A stretch of 36,375 nucleotides of DNA. Source: a virus. Below, piece after piece: positions 8,689-30,192 of the stretch. The DNA is taken from IMG/VR virus record IMGVR_UViG_3300030118_002701, positions 1 to 36,375 of that record; one strand, 5' to 3'. Each line of letters begins with the position of its first letter. Within the stretch, counting starts at the first letter, position 1. The position numbers and the translations under genes were made by a program. The notes below the pieces were generated by a model, which was not told the DNA's origin, searched no databases, and worked only from the letters and a program-made list of their open reading frames with translations.

Positions 8689-8750
8689 CCAAATTATAGA
8701 CAGGGATTATAAAACCCCTGTTTCGGCTTCGCCTCATCAGTATAATTTAG
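8689..8750 (-). ncRNA. Type I hammerhead ribozyme (HHR1)
   Basis: Read on the minus strand, all hammerhead parts are present in order. Stem I 5' strand AAAUUAUA (8748-8741), core CUGAUGA (8740-8734), stem II GGC-GAA-GCC (8733-8725), core GAAA (8724-8721), stem III CAGGGG/UCCCUG closed by an AU-rich loop (8720-8701), then UC with cleavage predicted after C8699, then stem I 3' strand UAUAAUUU (8698-8691). The A15.1-U16.1 pair, the G-C pair closing stem II and the A-U pair closing stem I are all as required. Stem I can extend by U-G and C-G pairs into the GG of the next gene's GGAGG site. The stop codon of the upstream gene (8747-8749) lies in stem I. Confidence 0.9.
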
Positions 8751-9319
8751 GCTACTTTTTCTGTCTCTAGTTCCTCCATTATTTGCTGTGGGGTTAATTG
8801 AGTATTCAACCAAACCAATAAATCCTGTGCAAATTTATCATGCTTAGACATTAGTTTAATTAATTCCTCTTCAAACGTCTCTTTCTTAGCTACCTTTTTT
8901 GCCTCAACAACTACTTTAAATAGACCTAAATCAGCGTCTTTGAATTTGTCTTTATTAAGGCATTTATCCCCATCTAAAACCCCGTTATTAATCTTTTTAA
9001 TTGTGATTAATTGAGTCTTTGAGTTTTCACCCAATAACCTACGCTGAACAGATTTAGCCTTAACTAGGGTTTGAAGTCTAGTTTTAACCCATTTTTTAGT
9101 ATTGGCTATTACTTCGGGTTCTTCCTCAGCATAAATTTTATTTAGCTTTTTAGTTAGAAGAGTATCAGCATTTTCTTTATTAGCGTGAAAAATATCCCTA
9201 GTAATGATATCCGTCATAAAATCCTCAATTACATTACATTTAATGCCACCCTCAACTACTTTTGTAATATCCTTTTGAGTAGGCTTTTTTGCTCTTGTAA
9301 GCTGTTCTATTTTTTCCAT
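8747..9319 (-). CDS. Hypothetical protein bracketed by two ribozymes, 190 aa
   Basis: Not recognised. A lysine-rich, mostly helical soluble protein. Residues about 75-95 are very basic (KKWVKTRLQTLVKAKSVQRR), a possible nucleic-acid-binding face; the C-terminal third is helical (LTPQQIMEELETE). Its 5' leader begins within a hammerhead ribozyme (9349-9404) and its stop codon lies in stem I of a second one (8689-8750). Cutting at both gives a 656-nt RNA carrying only this gene, with a 35-base 5' leader. The ribosome site is AAAGG, about 12 bases before the ATG. Confidence 0.7.
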   Translation of the reverse strand: MEKIEQLTRAKKPTQKDITKVVEGGIKCNVIEDFMTDIITRDIFHANKENADTLLTKKLNKIYAEEEPEVIANTKKWVKTRLQTLVKAKSVQRRLLGENSKTQLITIKKINNGVLDGDKCLNKDKFKDADLGLFKVVVEAKKVAKKETFEEELIKLMSKHDKFAQDLLVWLNTQLTPQQIMEELETEKVA

Positions 9320-9348
9320 GATTTTAATTTACCTTTCTTATTATTTTT

Positions 9349-9404
9349 GATTCAGACGCTGAAATTAATCAGCGTTTCGGATACAAAACCCTCATCAGTG
9401 AATC
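9349..9404 (-). ncRNA. Type I hammerhead ribozyme (HHR2)
   Basis: On the minus strand: stem I 5' strand GAUUCA (9404-9399), core CUGAUGA (9398-9392), stem II GGGU/AUCC-type helix with a U-rich loop (9391-9379), core GAAA (9378-9375), stem III CGCUGA/UCAGCG with a UUAAUU-type loop (9374-9357), then UC with cleavage predicted after C9355, and stem I 3' strand UGAAUC (9354-9349). All invariant core positions are present. Stem II has one G-U pair and is less stable than in HHR1. The first base of stem I is the last base of the TAG stop of the upstream 45-codon gene. Confidence 0.88.
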
Positions 9405-16664: not shown

Positions 16665-19208
16665 ATGCTAGGATTATCTAGTAGTTTAGTCAAGGGTGGT
16701 GCATCCCTTTTAACCTTTGTTAAGGACAACCTTAAACTATACCTCGACTTCAAATCTAATAAGTCAGACACGCTAAAGTTCCCATCAGAAGGTTCAACAT
16801 CGTTTGATGGTAGTGATGATTATATCGCACTTAATTCTGATATATCTTTGACAGGTGAGTTTACTTTTAATTTTTGGCTTTCTACTACTACATCTGGAAC
16901 AAGTTATTTAGTAAGTAAAAGCTCTCCAGAAAATTGGATAAGATTTGATATTGCAAGTTCCAATGCAAGATTGGCAATAGATGGAACAAGCTCTTCTTAT
17001 ATAACAAGTTTATCAATTCCAAGTGATGGAAGTTGGTTTCATTTCTCAATTACTCGTGATTCAAGCAATGTTATAACTGCTTATGTTGATGGAGTGCAGG
17101 ATGGAAATACTATAACTCAAAGTGGAACATTTACAATAAATGAAATAGGCAGATTTTTAAGTGTTGAATTTGCAGGTAAAATGGCAAATATGGCTATTTG
17201 GTCAAGGGTACTCGAGCCAGAAGAAATCCAATCCATAATGAACAAATCTTATAGCCAACTAAAGGGTGTAGAAAAAACAAGTTTAGTTAGTTGGTGGGGG
17301 TTAGATAGTCAAAGTAATGGAGTAGTACAACCTGCAACAGGAGAAACATTAGGTACAAATTTATTTACAGATTCTACATTTGATTTAAGTGGTACGCAAT
17401 CTGCATCTACTACAGGAACACATTGGACTACAGGAAGTGCTTGGACTATAGCAAATGGTGAAGCTATTTATGATGCAACTGCCCATGAAAATAGATTAGA
17501 GTTGCCATCAGCAACTTTTCAAAACGCAGGTTTGTATAAATTTAGTTTTACAGTTTCAGATGCAAATACAAAAGCAGGAATTAAAATTAAAGCAGGTGGA
17601 AATGATATTATTCCTACTGCGTATTATGATAATGGCAGTCATGTAATATATTATAATCAAGCAAGTGCTTATGGCTCTGCTAAAACATTAAAGATTGAAG
17701 GAAGAAATGATGTTCATGGTGCTTTTAAATTGCAAAGTGCATCATGGGAACTTGTAACCTCAAATACAGGATTTGTCACAGGAGCAACAACTACCACATC
17801 AGTATATGGTGGCAATGCACCAATCTTACCTCGTGCAGTTGATGTAGCTAAAGAAGGACAAGCAGATGCAATTGGGGATGGAAGTGCTTTGTTTAATGGC
17901 ACATCAGATTATGTGAGTGTTGCTACATCTGCTCATCAAACAACTAAAGGAACAATATCTGGATGGTTTTATCCTGTATTAAATGGTAACCAAACTTTAT
18001 TTAGTGTGGGAACAGCATCAGCAGGTAAAGTAAGGGCTTTATTTTTAAATGGTGCAAATTTAAAATTTATAGGATATAGTGCTGATTGGGATACAACTGT
18101 AGACATTGTGACAAATACTTGGTATCATCTTGGACTTACTTGGGATGGTAATAATGTTGTGGTTTATGTTAATGGTATTGCGTACCCTAATAGTAGTCTT
18201 ACTCTAAATACTCCAGATGGAACAGAATTAAAAATAGGAACTGCTACATGGACAAATAATTTCTATTTTGATGGTAATATATCTCAATTAGGACTTTGGC
18301 AAGGTGCATTAACTCAAGCACAAATACAATCTGTTATGGAATCTACTTCATACTCAAAAATCCCTGCTGATGTAAAGAGTACATTGGGTAATAATGTTGT
18401 TAGTTATAATAGCGTAGATAATGTAAATAATACTTTTGTAAATAATATTGCAACATATACAGCTAATGGTTACATATTTTTTAGTGGTGTTGCACCTGTA
18501 AGCACTTTATTTAAACTTGAATATACTGTTTTAACAAGAACTGCAATTGGTTTAAGACTTGCAGGGGGTAGTTCAGCTTTTGGTGTTGTTGCTTTAGATA
18601 GTAGTGTTGGTACACATAGTTATAATCTTGTATCATCTTCAAATTCAAATGCTAATTATTTATCTTTTAACTCTACAGGTTTTAGAGGAACTATAACAGA
18701 TATATCTGTTAAGCCAATATCTAACGAAATCGTTGCGTACTATCCACTCGATGGTAGTAGTTCAGCAAATGGTGTTACTCAAGATGTAACTACAGGAGAA
18801 ACACTTGGTGCAGAAAGAGTTCTTAATTCAGACTTTTCTGATGGTGAAAATTTATGGACTTTAAATAATGCTAATGTTGTTAATGGAGTTCTTGAAATAG
18901 ATGAAGGTGCATTTAGTTATTATGCACAACAATCAGTAGATGGAGGTGGTTCTAATTATAGGCAATTTGAATCTGGTTATTTAATGAAATTAGAAATTGT
19001 AGTAGATGAATACACATCTGGTGGTACAATTATATATGCTACAGGAAACAACATAGGAACATTTAGTTCAGCAGGTACTCATACTATTTATTATAAACCA
19101 AGTGCAAATGAGTATATTAGATTACGCTCTGATGGTGGAGGATTTGAAGGTAAAATAAGTAGTGTTTCAATTAAAAGAGTAACATCAAACACAGGAGTGC
19201 TTAAATAA
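16665..19208 (+). CDS. Multi-domain LamG (concanavalin-like) surface protein, 847 aa
   Basis: A large beta-rich protein. A first LamG domain (about 43-190) has the signature SFDGSDDYIAL, SGEFTFNFWL-type strands, then GSWFHFSITRD and YVDGV. A second (about 405-550) has ALFNGTSDYVSV, TWYHLGLTWDG and VYVNG. Between and after them are jelly-roll-like modules beginning GTNLFTDSTFDL (about 225-360) and GAERVLNSDFSDG (about 710-840), resembling carbohydrate-binding modules. LamG folds usually bind sugars or cell-surface proteins, so host attachment is likely. No catalytic residues seen. The TAATG overlap with the next gene suggests equal production. Confidence 0.75.
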   Translation: MLGLSSSLVKGGASLLTFVKDNLKLYLDFKSNKSDTLKFPSEGSTSFDGSDDYIALNSDISLTGEFTFNFWLSTTTSGTSYLVSKSSPENWIRFDIASSNARLAIDGTSSSYITSLSIPSDGSWFHFSITRDSSNVITAYVDGVQDGNTITQSGTFTINEIGRFLSVEFAGKMANMAIWSRVLEPEEIQSIMNKSYSQLKGVEKTSLVSWWGLDSQSNGVVQPATGETLGTNLFTDSTFDLSGTQSASTTGTHWTTGSAWTIANGEAIYDATAHENRLELPSATFQNAGLYKFSFTVSDANTKAGIKIKAGGNDIIPTAYYDNGSHVIYYNQASAYGSAKTLKIEGRNDVHGAFKLQSASWELVTSNTGFVTGATTTTSVYGGNAPILPRAVDVAKEGQADAIGDGSALFNGTSDYVSVATSAHQTTKGTISGWFYPVLNGNQTLFSVGTASAGKVRALFLNGANLKFIGYSADWDTTVDIVTNTWYHLGLTWDGNNVVVYVNGIAYPNSSLTLNTPDGTELKIGTATWTNNFYFDGNISQLGLWQGALTQAQIQSVMESTSYSKIPADVKSTLGNNVVSYNSVDNVNNTFVNNIATYTANGYIFFSGVAPVSTLFKLEYTVLTRTAIGLRLAGGSSAFGVVALDSSVGTHSYNLVSSSNSNANYLSFNSTGFRGTITDISVKPISNEIVAYYPLDGSSSANGVTQDVTTGETLGAERVLNSDFSDGENLWTLNNANVVNGVLEIDEGAFSYYAQQSVDGGGSNYRQFESGYLMKLEIVVDEYTSGGTIIYATGNNIGTFSSAGTHTIYYKPSANEYIRLRSDGGGFEGKISSVSIKRVTSNTGVLK

Positions 19209-21988
19209 TGGCTACGACAATTAATTCTGGATACGCAAACTCTCCTAAACTTACTGCTAATATCGCTGATCATGCAGATGTCTATGGTGGCAGAAGTTTG
19301 GTTTTTGACGGCATTTCAGATTATCTTGATTTAGGAACAGTTAATTTAGACACATCAGACTTTACAATTAGTATGTGGATTAATTTTACAAGTATTGGTA
19401 GCTATGAAGATATTTTTGATAATAGAAAAGCAAGTACAAACGGATTTATAATTAGAACATCTGGCGGTGGAAGTGGTATAGAGGTTCTTATTGATGCTCC
19501 ATCAAATTTAAGTATAACCTATAATTATACATCTACAGGACAATGGTTGCATCTATGTGTTTCAGTAGATAGAGATGGAAATATGGTATTGTATGCAAAT
19601 GGCAAAGCTGAAGGCACTACTGATATATCTGCATTATCATCTGGGACATTAAACCATGATGCAGGATGTAGAATTGGAGCTAATGAATCATTAACTGCTT
19701 CGTTTCATGGAAAAATGTGTGACTTTAAACTATTTAAAGGTATTGCATTTAGTGAATCACAAGTACAAGAGCTTTACAAAAAACCAGAATCTAACCCATC
19801 TAATACAACGCAATATTTAGAGCGTTGGTATCCTATGATTGAAAGTAACCCAGAAAGTCCACAATCAATAGTATATGACCATAGTGAGAAGAAGTTGGGT
19901 AGTGAATTAGTAGATAATAATACATCTTCTGGTTGGTTTGATAATAGCGATAGCTCAACTATAACTAACATTACAGATGGTGTGTCTATTGCAGATGATA
20001 GTGGTTTTTCTGATATTGGTTACTTTCGTGATAGTAATCTATTAAATACAGACTTAACTGTTGGTAAGTTATATAAAGTACAAGTTGATGCTTATCATAA
20101 TGGAGTTACTACAGTAGAATTAAGAATTAGAGATGGAGCATCTAATCAGTTAATTAACTTAACAACAACTAATACTACATACACTCGTTATATAGTTGTT
20201 CAAAGTGCAACAAATAGTTCAATTAGAACAAATAATCACGCATCTGGTAGTATAGCTTATTTAACTAATCTATCAGTCAAAGAAGTCCTCATGGGCAACC
20301 ACGCTACTACAAATTTCTTTGGGGATGAGTTACTTACCAATGATAGTACAAATTGGGAAAATAGTGGAGCGTTTGGTTCTGTTGCTTATTATTCAAGTGG
20401 TACAAATAGTGGGGCAGGTAATATAAAGCAAGATGGATTTACTTTATCAGCAGGAAAAACTTATCAATATTCTTTTGCTATCGGTGCAGGTCATCCACTT
20501 CGAACAACATTAAAAAGTTATGATGGGAATGTAATTTATAAAGCAGAAACTGATTATGCACCAAATACAACTCACACAGTAACATTTGTACCATCTTCAG
20601 ATAAAATTGGATTAATGTTTAGCGTTAGTGAAAGTGTAAGTGGAGATTCAAATTTAACTTTAAGTAGTCATACTTTAAAAGAAGTAGGAGTATCCTCATC
20701 TGGATTTGAAACTGCTGTAAATGAACCTGTAGTACCACAAGTACCATTGATGAGATACAATCAAGTAATGTTATTTAATGGAATAGATGATTATATAACA
20801 GGAAGCAGTATTGGAATTAGTGGAAATGCTACTTTTAGCATATCTTTTTGGGCATATTGGAATGGTAACTCTTGGGTTTCAGATTTTACAAGTGTTGTAG
20901 GTAATAGCACTCAAGGTACAGGTCTTGGACTTTCAACAACATTTAATGCAGGTAGACCTGCACTTGATTTTTGGAATGTTAGATATAGAGCAGATAACGC
21001 TTTAGATGTACAAAGGTGGTATCATATCGCTTTTACTAAAACATCTGGTAATATTTCATCAACATCTAAAATTTATGTAAATGGAATAGAGGTTGCAGGT
21101 TCACTTGAACAGCCAGACCAAGCTCCAAATATAACTGATTCAAATATAGTAATAGGAAGATTACATGATGCAACTAATAGATATTGGAATGGTAAAATTA
21201 ATGAAATCAGTATTTTTAATACTGCATTAAATCAAACTCAAGTTCAAGAACTATTTAACGATGGTGTCGCATACGATGCTACTACACATAGTCAATCTGC
21301 AAATCTTATAGGATATTGGCGAAACGATGGTGTAACTACATGGAAGGATAGAAGTACAAATAGTAACGATGGCACAGTACAAAGCACACCAGATTCTATA
21401 ACCATTAGAGAAGGACTTAACTCAAACAGAGATGGACTTGGTTTTTACTTTACTAATCCAAGTAGCAATGTGTTAAGGTTAAATGGTGTTGATGAGTATG
21501 TAGAAGTACCTAAAACTGGCGGTATTAATATGTCTGGTGGTAGACCATTTACTATGTCAGCTTGGATAAAATTAGACAAATTAAATGCAGACCAAGCAAT
21601 AATGTTTAGTGGAGCAGTTTCTTCAAATGCTGAAAACTTATTATATGTTACATCTTCAAATAAAATAGGATGGAATAATCAAGGTAGCAATTTTGCTAAT
21701 AGTTCTGGCACAACTATATCACTTGGAAGGTGGTATCATGTAGCAGTTACTTTTAATGGAACTACTACAATTAAAATTTATGTTGATAACGATTTAGATG
21801 GTACAAAATCAGATTGCTCTGGTGTTGCTATTACAGATACAAGCGTTTTGATTGGTAAAAGGACACATTCAAATGCATTACATTTTAATGGACTTATTGA
21901 TGAAGCGAGAATTTATAATAGAGAACTATCATTAGCTGAAATTCAGAAAAACTATAAACACCAAAAAGGTAAACACAAAAATGACTAA
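19208..21988 (+). CDS. Multi-domain LamG (concanavalin-like) surface protein, 926 aa
   Basis: Like its upstream neighbour, built from repeated LamG modules: about 30-195 (LVFDGISDYLDL, QWLHLCVSVDRDG), about 520-690 (MLFNGIDDYITG, RWYHIAFTKTSG, KIYVNGI) and about 755-915 (LRLNGVDEYVEV, RWYHVAVTFNG, IYVDND). Each ends with a helix of the type LSLAEIQ or LNQTQVQELF. Two carbohydrate-binding-like modules lie between the first and second. The two proteins are probably paralogues from module duplication. Their place between capsid and connector genes leaves open whether they decorate the head or form side fibres. Receptor binding is inferred. Confidence 0.75.
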   Translation: MATTINSGYANSPKLTANIADHADVYGGRSLVFDGISDYLDLGTVNLDTSDFTISMWINFTSIGSYEDIFDNRKASTNGFIIRTSGGGSGIEVLIDAPSNLSITYNYTSTGQWLHLCVSVDRDGNMVLYANGKAEGTTDISALSSGTLNHDAGCRIGANESLTASFHGKMCDFKLFKGIAFSESQVQELYKKPESNPSNTTQYLERWYPMIESNPESPQSIVYDHSEKKLGSELVDNNTSSGWFDNSDSSTITNITDGVSIADDSGFSDIGYFRDSNLLNTDLTVGKLYKVQVDAYHNGVTTVELRIRDGASNQLINLTTTNTTYTRYIVVQSATNSSIRTNNHASGSIAYLTNLSVKEVLMGNHATTNFFGDELLTNDSTNWENSGAFGSVAYYSSGTNSGAGNIKQDGFTLSAGKTYQYSFAIGAGHPLRTTLKSYDGNVIYKAETDYAPNTTHTVTFVPSSDKIGLMFSVSESVSGDSNLTLSSHTLKEVGVSSSGFETAVNEPVVPQVPLMRYNQVMLFNGIDDYITGSSIGISGNATFSISFWAYWNGNSWVSDFTSVVGNSTQGTGLGLSTTFNAGRPALDFWNVRYRADNALDVQRWYHIAFTKTSGNISSTSKIYVNGIEVAGSLEQPDQAPNITDSNIVIGRLHDATNRYWNGKINEISIFNTALNQTQVQELFNDGVAYDATTHSQSANLIGYWRNDGVTTWKDRSTNSNDGTVQSTPDSITIREGLNSNRDGLGFYFTNPSSNVLRLNGVDEYVEVPKTGGINMSGGRPFTMSAWIKLDKLNADQAIMFSGAVSSNAENLLYVTSSNKIGWNNQGSNFANSSGTTISLGRWYHVAVTFNGTTTIKIYVDNDLDGTKSDCSGVAITDTSVLIGKRTHSNALHFNGLIDEARIYNRELSLAEIQKNYKHQKGKHKND

Positions 21989-28466: not shown

Positions 28467-30192
28467 AATAAAATTTATACCTGATAGTGATAAACGATTA
28501 GTTAATGCTATTAAAGCATTAGATAGAGCATCTAAATCTCTTACCAACACTCAGTCTCAACTGTCTAGACAAAATGTTCACAATACTAGAACACAAAAAA
28601 AATATAACACCGAAGTTAAAAAAGCAGAAGTAAATACAAGAATACTTGGGGGAACTTTTGCTGTACTAAGATCAAGGTTATTGCTATTTAACTTTGCAAT
28701 GGGTTTAGGAATTAGGCAAGTAGCTAAGTTTGCAGTGCAAAGTGCAAAGGTAGAGTCTATGAATAGGGCTTTTAATACCTTATCTGGAGGAACTGAAGAA
28801 TCTTCAGTAGCTTTTCAAAAATTAAGAGAAGCTACAGATGGAACAATGTCTGAGTTTGATTTATTTCAACAAGCTAATAATGCTATGATACTTGGAGTTA
28901 GTAAAAACTCTGATGAAATGGCTGAAATGTTTGATATTGCACAAAGACTTGGTAGAGCATTAGGTAGAGACACAGCATCATCTGTTGAATCACTTATTAC
29001 AGGTATAGGTAGACAATCAAGATTAATGTTAGATAACATTGGTATTATTGTAAAATCTGATGAAGCATATGCATCTTATGCTGAAAAATTAAATAAATCG
29101 GTTAGTAATCTTACAGATGCTGAGAGAAAACAAGCATTTTTAACTGCTACTATGGAATCTGCCAGAGCTAAAGCAGATTCTTTAGGGAAAGAAACAGAGT
29201 CTACGCAAGATGCATTTGATAGATTATCTTCATCTACAGCAAATTTAGCAACTTTTATAGGGAAAAAATTAAATCCAGTTACAACAACACTAGCTAATAA
29301 CCTATCAGCAATAGCAGATACTGTTAGTGGAGCTAATAATGAAGAGCAAACAAGAGAAGAGAAATTAGCTGAAAAATTATCTTTTAGAGCTAGTTTACAA
29401 GACAATATATTAAATTTAGAAAAACAAAAAGGGATAATAATAAAAAATACTTCAGGAAGATCAACACAAGCATTAGATGATGAAATAGAAAGAACTAAAA
29501 CTGTTATTCAAAATTTAGATATGGAGCTAGGATTATATAATAATTTAATATTTGGAAAAAACAAATTAAATGAAGCTGGATTAATTGAGTCAGGCATTCA
29601 AAATACAGTAACAGATAATTTAGTTAAACAATCAGAGGTAGTTCCTAAATTAGCAAGTGATATTGCATTAACAAATCAAAATTTTAGTTTTTTAAATGCA
29701 GAACAACTTACAGTATTAAAAGGAACTCAGTTATTATCTAACGCATTTGCTCAAGCAACACTACATGGTCAAAACTTTGGAGATGCTGTAGTTAATAGTT
29801 TAAAAGCAATAGCATCGCAATTAATTGCAAAAGCAGGTACATATGCTTTGATGAGTATGTTTGCACCTAGTGTTTCATTAGGTTCATTTGCAAAATTTTT
29901 ATTTGCACACACAGGTGGATATATTAGAGATGATAAAACAATACAAAGATTTGCTACAGGCGGTGTAGTGCAAGGTGAAGATAATGTGCCTATTATGGCA
30001 CAAGCAGGAGAATTTGTAATGTCTCGTAATGCTGTAGAATCTATTGGAATAAATAATCTCGCTAGGATGAATAGGACAGGTAATGCAGGAGTTACAATTA
30101 ATATCCAAGGCAATATGATCGGTAATGAAGAATTTGTAAGAGATACACTAATGCCTGAAATAAATAGAACAGTTAATCAAGGTCTTGCATAA
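28450..30192 (+). CDS. Tail tape measure protein
   Basis: A 580-residue protein. A coiled-coil start (about 10-60) and a hydrophobic patch (LLLFNFAMGLGIRQVAKFAV, about 77-97) are followed by a long helical region with LTDAERKQAFLTATMESA, a stretch often seen in tape measure proteins. The C-terminal part carries GGVVQGEDNVPIMAQAGEFVMS, also typical. It sets tail length; 580 residues predicts a tail of roughly 85-90 nm by the usual 1.5 angstrom per residue rule. It shares one base with the next gene. Confidence 0.85.
   Translation: MANEVRIKFIPDSDKRLVNAIKALDRASKSLTNTQSQLSRQNVHNTRTQKKYNTEVKKAEVNTRILGGTFAVLRSRLLLFNFAMGLGIRQVAKFAVQSAKVESMNRAFNTLSGGTEESSVAFQKLREATDGTMSEFDLFQQANNAMILGVSKNSDEMAEMFDIAQRLGRALGRDTASSVESLITGIGRQSRLMLDNIGIIVKSDEAYASYAEKLNKSVSNLTDAERKQAFLTATMESARAKADSLGKETESTQDAFDRLSSSTANLATFIGKKLNPVTTTLANNLSAIADTVSGANNEEQTREEKLAEKLSFRASLQDNILNLEKQKGIIIKNTSGRSTQALDDEIERTKTVIQNLDMELGLYNNLIFGKNKLNEAGLIESGIQNTVTDNLVKQSEVVPKLASDIALTNQNFSFLNAEQLTVLKGTQLLSNAFAQATLHGQNFGDAVVNSLKAIASQLIAKAGTYALMSMFAPSVSLGSFAKFLFAHTGGYIRDDKTIQRFATGGVVQGEDNVPIMAQAGEFVMSRNAVESIGINNLARMNRTGNAGVTINIQGNMIGNEEFVRDTLMPEINRTVNQGLA

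Follow-up and report, generated by a model that had tools for sequence, protein, structure and literature searches.

Two type I hammerhead ribozymes, here called HHR1 and HHR2, lie in series on the minus strand of a tailed-phage genome and frame a single gene, which the self-cleaving pair would release as an insulated monocistronic mRNA. This is the best explanation of the arrangement and probably the correct one. The structure and position of the two ribozymes, their conservation and covariation in related phages, and the turnover of the genes upstream of them all bear on this reading, from which we infer cleavage as well as its effect on translation and decay. The framed-gene family bears on the question of why hammerheads are so frequent in phages, an association for which, according to a 2023 paper (PMC10085705), the biological reason is still unknown.

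The window, by which is meant the whole stretch of DNA analysed (36,375 nucleotides, IMG/VR record IMGVR_UViG_3300030118_002701), is assigned to a phage by its terminase, primase-helicase, replication and structural genes. The features under discussion are collected in Table 1.

Table 1. Positions in the window of the two ribozymes, the genes around them and the RNA that they are predicted to release.
Feature	Position	Strand	Remarks
HHR1	9349..9404	-	Type I hammerhead; predicted cut after C9355
HHR2	8689..8750	-	Type I hammerhead; predicted cut after C8699
Framed gene, 190 aa	8747..9319	-	No functional assignment from searches; tailed phage
Predicted excised monocistronic RNA, 656 nt	8699..9354	-	5'-OH at 9354, 2',3'-cyclic phosphate at 8699
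Gene upstream of HHR1, 45 aa	9404..9541	-	UAG stop 5 nt before ribozyme core; other genes there in several relatives
Gene downstream of HHR2, 189 aa	8112..8681	-	PHROG 3754 (function unknown)

Sequence and fold of the two hammerheads

Both ribozymes have the type I order, in which stem I is open, stems II and III are closed and the cut falls after C17. On the minus strand HHR1 (9404-9349) reads GATTCA-CTGATGA-GGGTTTTGTATCC-GAAA-CGCTGATTAATTTCAGCG-TC/TGAATC and HHR2 (8750-8689) reads CTAAATTATA-CTGATGA-GGCGAAGCC-GAAA-CAGGGGTTTTATAATCCCTG-TC/TATAATTTGG, where the oblique stroke marks the predicted cut. Around its CTGATGA/GAAA core, HHR1 has a stem I of 6 bp, a stem II of 4 bp with a UUUGU loop and a stem III of 7 bp. 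Stem I of HHR2, 10 bp long, takes in the UAA that stops the framed gene as well as the two leading G of the next gene's GGAGG. Its stem II is formed of 3 bp with a GAA triloop, as against the usual 4-bp stem with a UNNNU loop, which is present in HHR1 and in 257 of 464 among the surveyed matches listed; because of this unusual form, HHR2 of the window may be the slower cutter. Fast cutting by type I hammerheads at low Mg2+ depends on a tertiary contact between loop II and stem I.

Folded unaided, each ribozyme adopts the hammerhead secondary structure. In a structural scan of the window the two score 17 and 22, whereas 300 dinucleotide shuffles gave a single score of 16, a rate of 0.003 hits per shuffle at 16 or above. 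That HHR1 and HHR2 are real, lie at the positions in Table 1 and stand far above chance is confirmed, so that the pair put forward in a preliminary description of this DNA is borne out by sequence, folds and shuffles alike. The predicted cut positions and the RNA lying between them, when recomputed, also agree with that description.

The curated Rfam models fare differently. RF03152 (RAGATH-1-hammerhead) aligns with HHR2 end to end, yet its 41.4 bits fall below the cut-off of 56.3, and a search of the window with the same model did not report HHR1; RF00163 found neither hammerhead in the window. Since such models overlook these ribozymes, pairs of this kind are probably under-annotated. Neither a covariance model nor the structural scan gave a confident third ribozyme in the window or its relatives' records, and a weak match at +29558 (17.7 bits, E 0.21) is at chance level.

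Conservation of the pair in related phages

A search of IMG/VR for relatives of the framed gene gave seven further distinct lineages, or eight with the window, and the framed proteins of the seven are 50-66% identical to that of the window. A hammerhead is present at both places in all eight, with 650-656 nt between the cuts. A covariance model built from the HHR1 copies alone detects HHR2 in seven records, while HHR2 of the window, L009, L010 and L013 was detected by the structural scan only.

The three stems all remain paired through many two-sided changes. In the eight HHR1 orthologues stems I and II are 100% paired, with two-sided changes at 7 pairs; overall 93.8% of cells are paired, every unpaired cell belonging to one of the two apical stem III pairs, and 17 cells are changed on both sides as against 5.9 in shuffles. 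Sliding the alignment by 1-3 columns brings pairing down to 38% or less. In the eight HHR2 orthologues pairing of stem III is 100%, and 3 of its 6 pairs show two-sided changes; 98% of all cells are paired, with 9 two-sided changes against 3.3 in shuffles. The core is CUGANGA/GAAA, with UH at the cleavage site, in each of the 16 aligned copies. The sole variation is in N7, which is U, A or G, and in a single U that 7 of the 16 have inserted before stem II; insertions of one or two nucleotides beside CUGAnGA are within the known range (PMC10085705). The preliminary description had looked to related phages for two things, whether the pair is kept around this gene and whether the core drifts without compensatory pairing: the pair is kept in every lineage, with covariation, and no such drift is seen. 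The compensatory stem changes, together with the presence of both ribozymes in all eight lineages, imply selection on activity.

In L019, a more distant homologue at 33% identity, the framed gene is followed by a similar downstream gene but there is no hammerhead. The ribozymes are therefore not essential to the framed gene, and their gain or loss has left the two genes together.

The operon and the turnover of genes upstream of HHR1

The minus-strand operon is packed and includes, further down, a replication initiator and a primase-helicase; sharing its strand and operon with these, the framed gene is plausibly early, as the preliminary description called it. Among 25 mechanically called ORFs of the operon the sole gaps longer than 31 nt are of 84 and 65 nt, and both are filled by the ribozymes. 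The remaining genes overlap and are probably translationally coupled. Two other signals considered after the framed gene were rejected. Stem III of HHR2 as a transcription terminator is one weak match, in a number equal to chance expectation; a TATAAT after the HHR2 cut is one of a chance number of promoter-like matches in the region, and as a promoter it would place the transcription start on the ribosome-binding site.

For the framed protein, Pfam and PHROG searches gave no match, and with an AlphaFold2 model of pLDDT 80 the only match of a fold search was BFVD A0A516M4L5, with none in the PDB. In cultured phages neither the framed gene nor its distant homologue had a protein match, and the 24 kb of the window searched (12001-36375) had no DNA match; no relative of the framed gene was found in bacterial genomes. 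Hits to the window's terminase and primase, all at less than 60% identity, are spread among various hosts. On the plus strand, at 16665-19208 and 19208-21988, proteins of 847 and 926 aa with laminin-G or concanavalin-like domains are encoded among the virion genes.

The DNA upstream of HHR1 was compared in five lineages in which the framed genes share 88-92% DNA identity. Over the 250 nt before the ribozyme they are mostly at background, which is to say about 50-60% identity in most lineage pairs, and the ORFs found there, of 150, 101, 147, 43 and 133 aa, represent several unrelated kinds of gene, those of 147 and 133 aa being related. HHR1 nevertheless always starts 5-8 nt past whichever stop codon precedes it, and HHR2 starts 6-12 nt past the stop of the framed gene. 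HHR1 (window 9349-9404, relatives L010-L017) thus sits at a junction where genes turn over. Between L011 and L017 HHR1 is 88% identical and the framed genes 62%, and HHR1 alleles appear to have been exchanged between phage lineages. This natural comparison, in which the same framed gene and ribozymes stand behind differing upstream genes, points to mRNA insulation and makes that reading directly testable.

Probable processing and insulation of the framed gene

How would the pair act? HHR1 and HHR2 would cut the long minus-strand transcript during its synthesis, each in the short space between a stop codon and the next Shine-Dalgarno site. Together the two cuts would release the framed gene as the only ORF of its 656-nt mRNA, behind a leader of 35 nt from cut to AUG, and the second cut would provide the next gene with a short leader of its own, the AUG of that gene lying 17 nt after what is then its predicted mRNA start. 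Hammerhead cleavage leaves a 5'-OH and a 2',3'-cyclic phosphate. The RNAs would then begin without 5' phosphates, and the 3' end would be capped by a hairpin and bear the cyclic phosphate. The leader would be uniform whatever sequence precedes HHR1, and the leaders of the framed gene (from HHR1) and of its downstream neighbour (from HHR2) would be independent of the upstream gene. The function would be one of insulation, as in the synthetic RiboJ part, and HHR1, set behind changing stop codons, may be likened to a natural RiboJ insulator.

At HHR2 the cut may in addition free a partly masked ribosome-binding site. When folded in short contexts, the Shine-Dalgarno bases after HHR2 are less often unpaired before the cut than after it in all eight lineages; with longer contexts several of the eight show little or no difference. 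This weakening of the effect in longer contexts counts against the insulation reading, as do the missing hammerhead of L019 and the lack of the usual loop II in HHR2 of the window. AU-rich ribozymes can also fail in cells, as with riboJ57 (PMC7536230).

A wider survey of phage hammerheads

Hammerheads were also surveyed by a custom structural search of pattern-seeded IMG/VR loci, a sample that is biased by the seed patterns, with crude gene calling and partial contigs. From the first three seed patterns come the 128 non-redundant type I clusters listed, while the array counts use all five. In 87 of these 128 an ORF of at least 40 aa ends near the core and a start codon lies within 60 nt of the cut, an arrangement found at 10% of random positions. 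The cut-to-start distance in the clusters listed has a median of 26 nt, and the distance from stop to core peaks at -4, 0, 5 and 6 nt. A stop at -4 is the UGA of the core CUGA itself, which ends the upstream gene in 17 of 17 such clusters among the matches listed. By this survey, a module of stop codon, hammerhead, Shine-Dalgarno site and start codon is common in phages.

Arrays with more than one type I ribozyme number at least 116, and among those listed each keeps to one strand. In L464, for instance, 11 type I hammerheads follow each other on one strand, with every cut 19-26 nt ahead of a start codon that has a Shine-Dalgarno site before it. Other very long arrays are found in viral contigs L576 (9), L447 (7) and L523 (7), and in L523 all seven ribozymes have behind them a second conserved element, about GTCAGGTGCAGACTATAACAGGCAC. 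Across at least 53 array families defined at the DNA level, stem I is identical in 35.5% of pairs within arrays versus 2.7% between them (0 of 2000 permutations), and at least 24 arrays hold members with a common stem I but differing stem III. The 6-nt stem I is often common where stems II and III differ (L447, L464, L523, L202, L211, L216, L227, L339, L351 and others). Since stem I is common to their members, the cut ends of such arrays would be interchangeable. Stem III is likewise enriched within arrays, so duplication contributes to the common stem I, and a permutation at the level of protein families covers 14 arrays only; selection on interchangeable ends in other arrays is thus suggested only. 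In the framed-gene family stem I is not common to the two ribozymes. One further record, G051 (the 347 kb record of L352), holds a hammerhead pair 149 nt apart and encodes RtcB at 28574-29701 (E 5e-131), the sole RtcB among 47 records searched, and is a candidate for true RNA circularisation.

A broader and rather doubtful proposal is that hammerheads are a general phage device for cutting up operons, at the places where genes turn over, into insulated mRNAs of one gene each. The common stem I of many other arrays would then give interchangeable ends, by which pieces could be religated in new orders or into circles, and the family of the window would be a non-interchangeable branch that purely processes its RNA.

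Alternative explanations

The cuts could instead destabilise the RNA, by stripping away stabilising context so that faster decay lowers expression or sets stoichiometry gene by gene. A cut would indeed detach the gene from upstream translation and leave a 5'-OH RNA still open to internal attack, but 5'-OH ends escape 5'-phosphate-dependent decay, the 3' end carries a strong hairpin and a rise in expression has been reported for RiboJ-type parts (PMC6993053); we regard this as unlikely. It is improbable, too, that the ribozymes form a translation-coupled switch, in which a ribosome ending the upstream gene covers stem I and the core and blocks folding, such that cutting reports upstream translation. 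The stops 5-12 nt from the core in the framed-gene family and the stop peaks of the survey are what such a switch would call for, but genome compactness alone gives the same placement.

In a third explanation the product is circular or spliced RNA, with the fragment closed by ribozyme religation or RtcB, or the flanks joined and the gene removed. By established chemistry hammerhead ends are compatible with RtcB, and neighbouring hammerheads in other phage arrays often have interchangeable stem I strands. Here, however, pairings of stem I across the two ribozymes reach 0-2 bp versus 6 bp within each in all eight lineages, RtcB occurs in 1 of 47 records overall and in neither the window nor the relatives searched, and Perreault et al. 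2011, who looked, found neither product (PMC3088659); the explanation is very improbable. A ribozyme-made circular mRNA of the Tornado-like kind requires either ends compatible for religation or an RtcB ligase; in all eight lineages the stem I strands do not match, and the window and searched relatives gave no RtcB. The preliminary description was therefore right to think self-religation unlikely, and its suggestion of RtcB-type ligation into a circular mRNA finds no support in the window or searched relatives; the detached single-gene RNA that it proposed, which presupposes cleavage, keeps the backing of a conserved and functional-looking pair. Finally, that the ribozymes are neutral or selfish elements which persist through recombination without benefiting the phage draws on the seemingly shuffled HHR1 alleles but is set against the selection on activity described above, and is hardly credible.

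The processing of the operon into an insulated single-gene mRNA is thus the preferred reading for the window. If the broader proposal on phage hammerheads holds, RNA pieces from arrays with a common stem I could be reordered or circularised.

Comparison with known systems

The preliminary description took phage hammerheads to have been reported singly near genes, but clusters flanking phage genes, and the same hypotheses, were already published (PMC3088659). Perreault et al. 2011 described clustered hammerheads around single prophage genes, such as the Agrobacterium tumefaciens triple around ardA, and proposed single-gene mRNAs, or circular or spliced RNA; three arrangements were seen to cleave in vitro, and the A. 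tumefaciens triple also within E. coli, while circles and spliced RNA were looked for and went undetected (PMC3088659). The window and its relatives belong with these clusters, having at least two hammerheads on one strand that flank one gene or short block. In both, coding-strand hammerheads in series frame one gene and the same processing is proposed. The differences are that cleavage was demonstrated there, while the window pair is known from its sequence, and that the gene and phage group are other ones, with the pair traced across lineages through upstream gene turnover. The paired layout has thus been known since 2011, and the window adds an example with unusually clear comparative evidence; what is new is that the ribozymes fill the operon's only gaps above 31 nt and that HHR1 keeps its place despite the turnover upstream.

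In haloviruses HF1 and HF2, HHphage is likewise a phage hammerhead just upstream of a start codon, and the 5' end of the mRNA has been mapped to within 3 nt of the cut (PMC3088659). It differs in being a single ribozyme with a core insertion near C3 in a virus of an archaeal host, and HF2 encodes RtcB, unlike the window (PMC7230728). With RiboJ (Lou et al. 2012), a hammerhead just before the ribosome-binding site normalises the 5' end of the mRNA whatever precedes it (PMC6993053, PMC7536230), and insulators of this type cleave to about 0.84-0.94 in cells, apart from a single AU-rich exception (PMC7536230). As in the window, the ribozyme is placed just upstream of the ribosome-binding site; RiboJ, however, is engineered, single and provided with an added hairpin, whereas the hammerheads of the window are natural and paired and would also set the 3' end of the upstream RNA.
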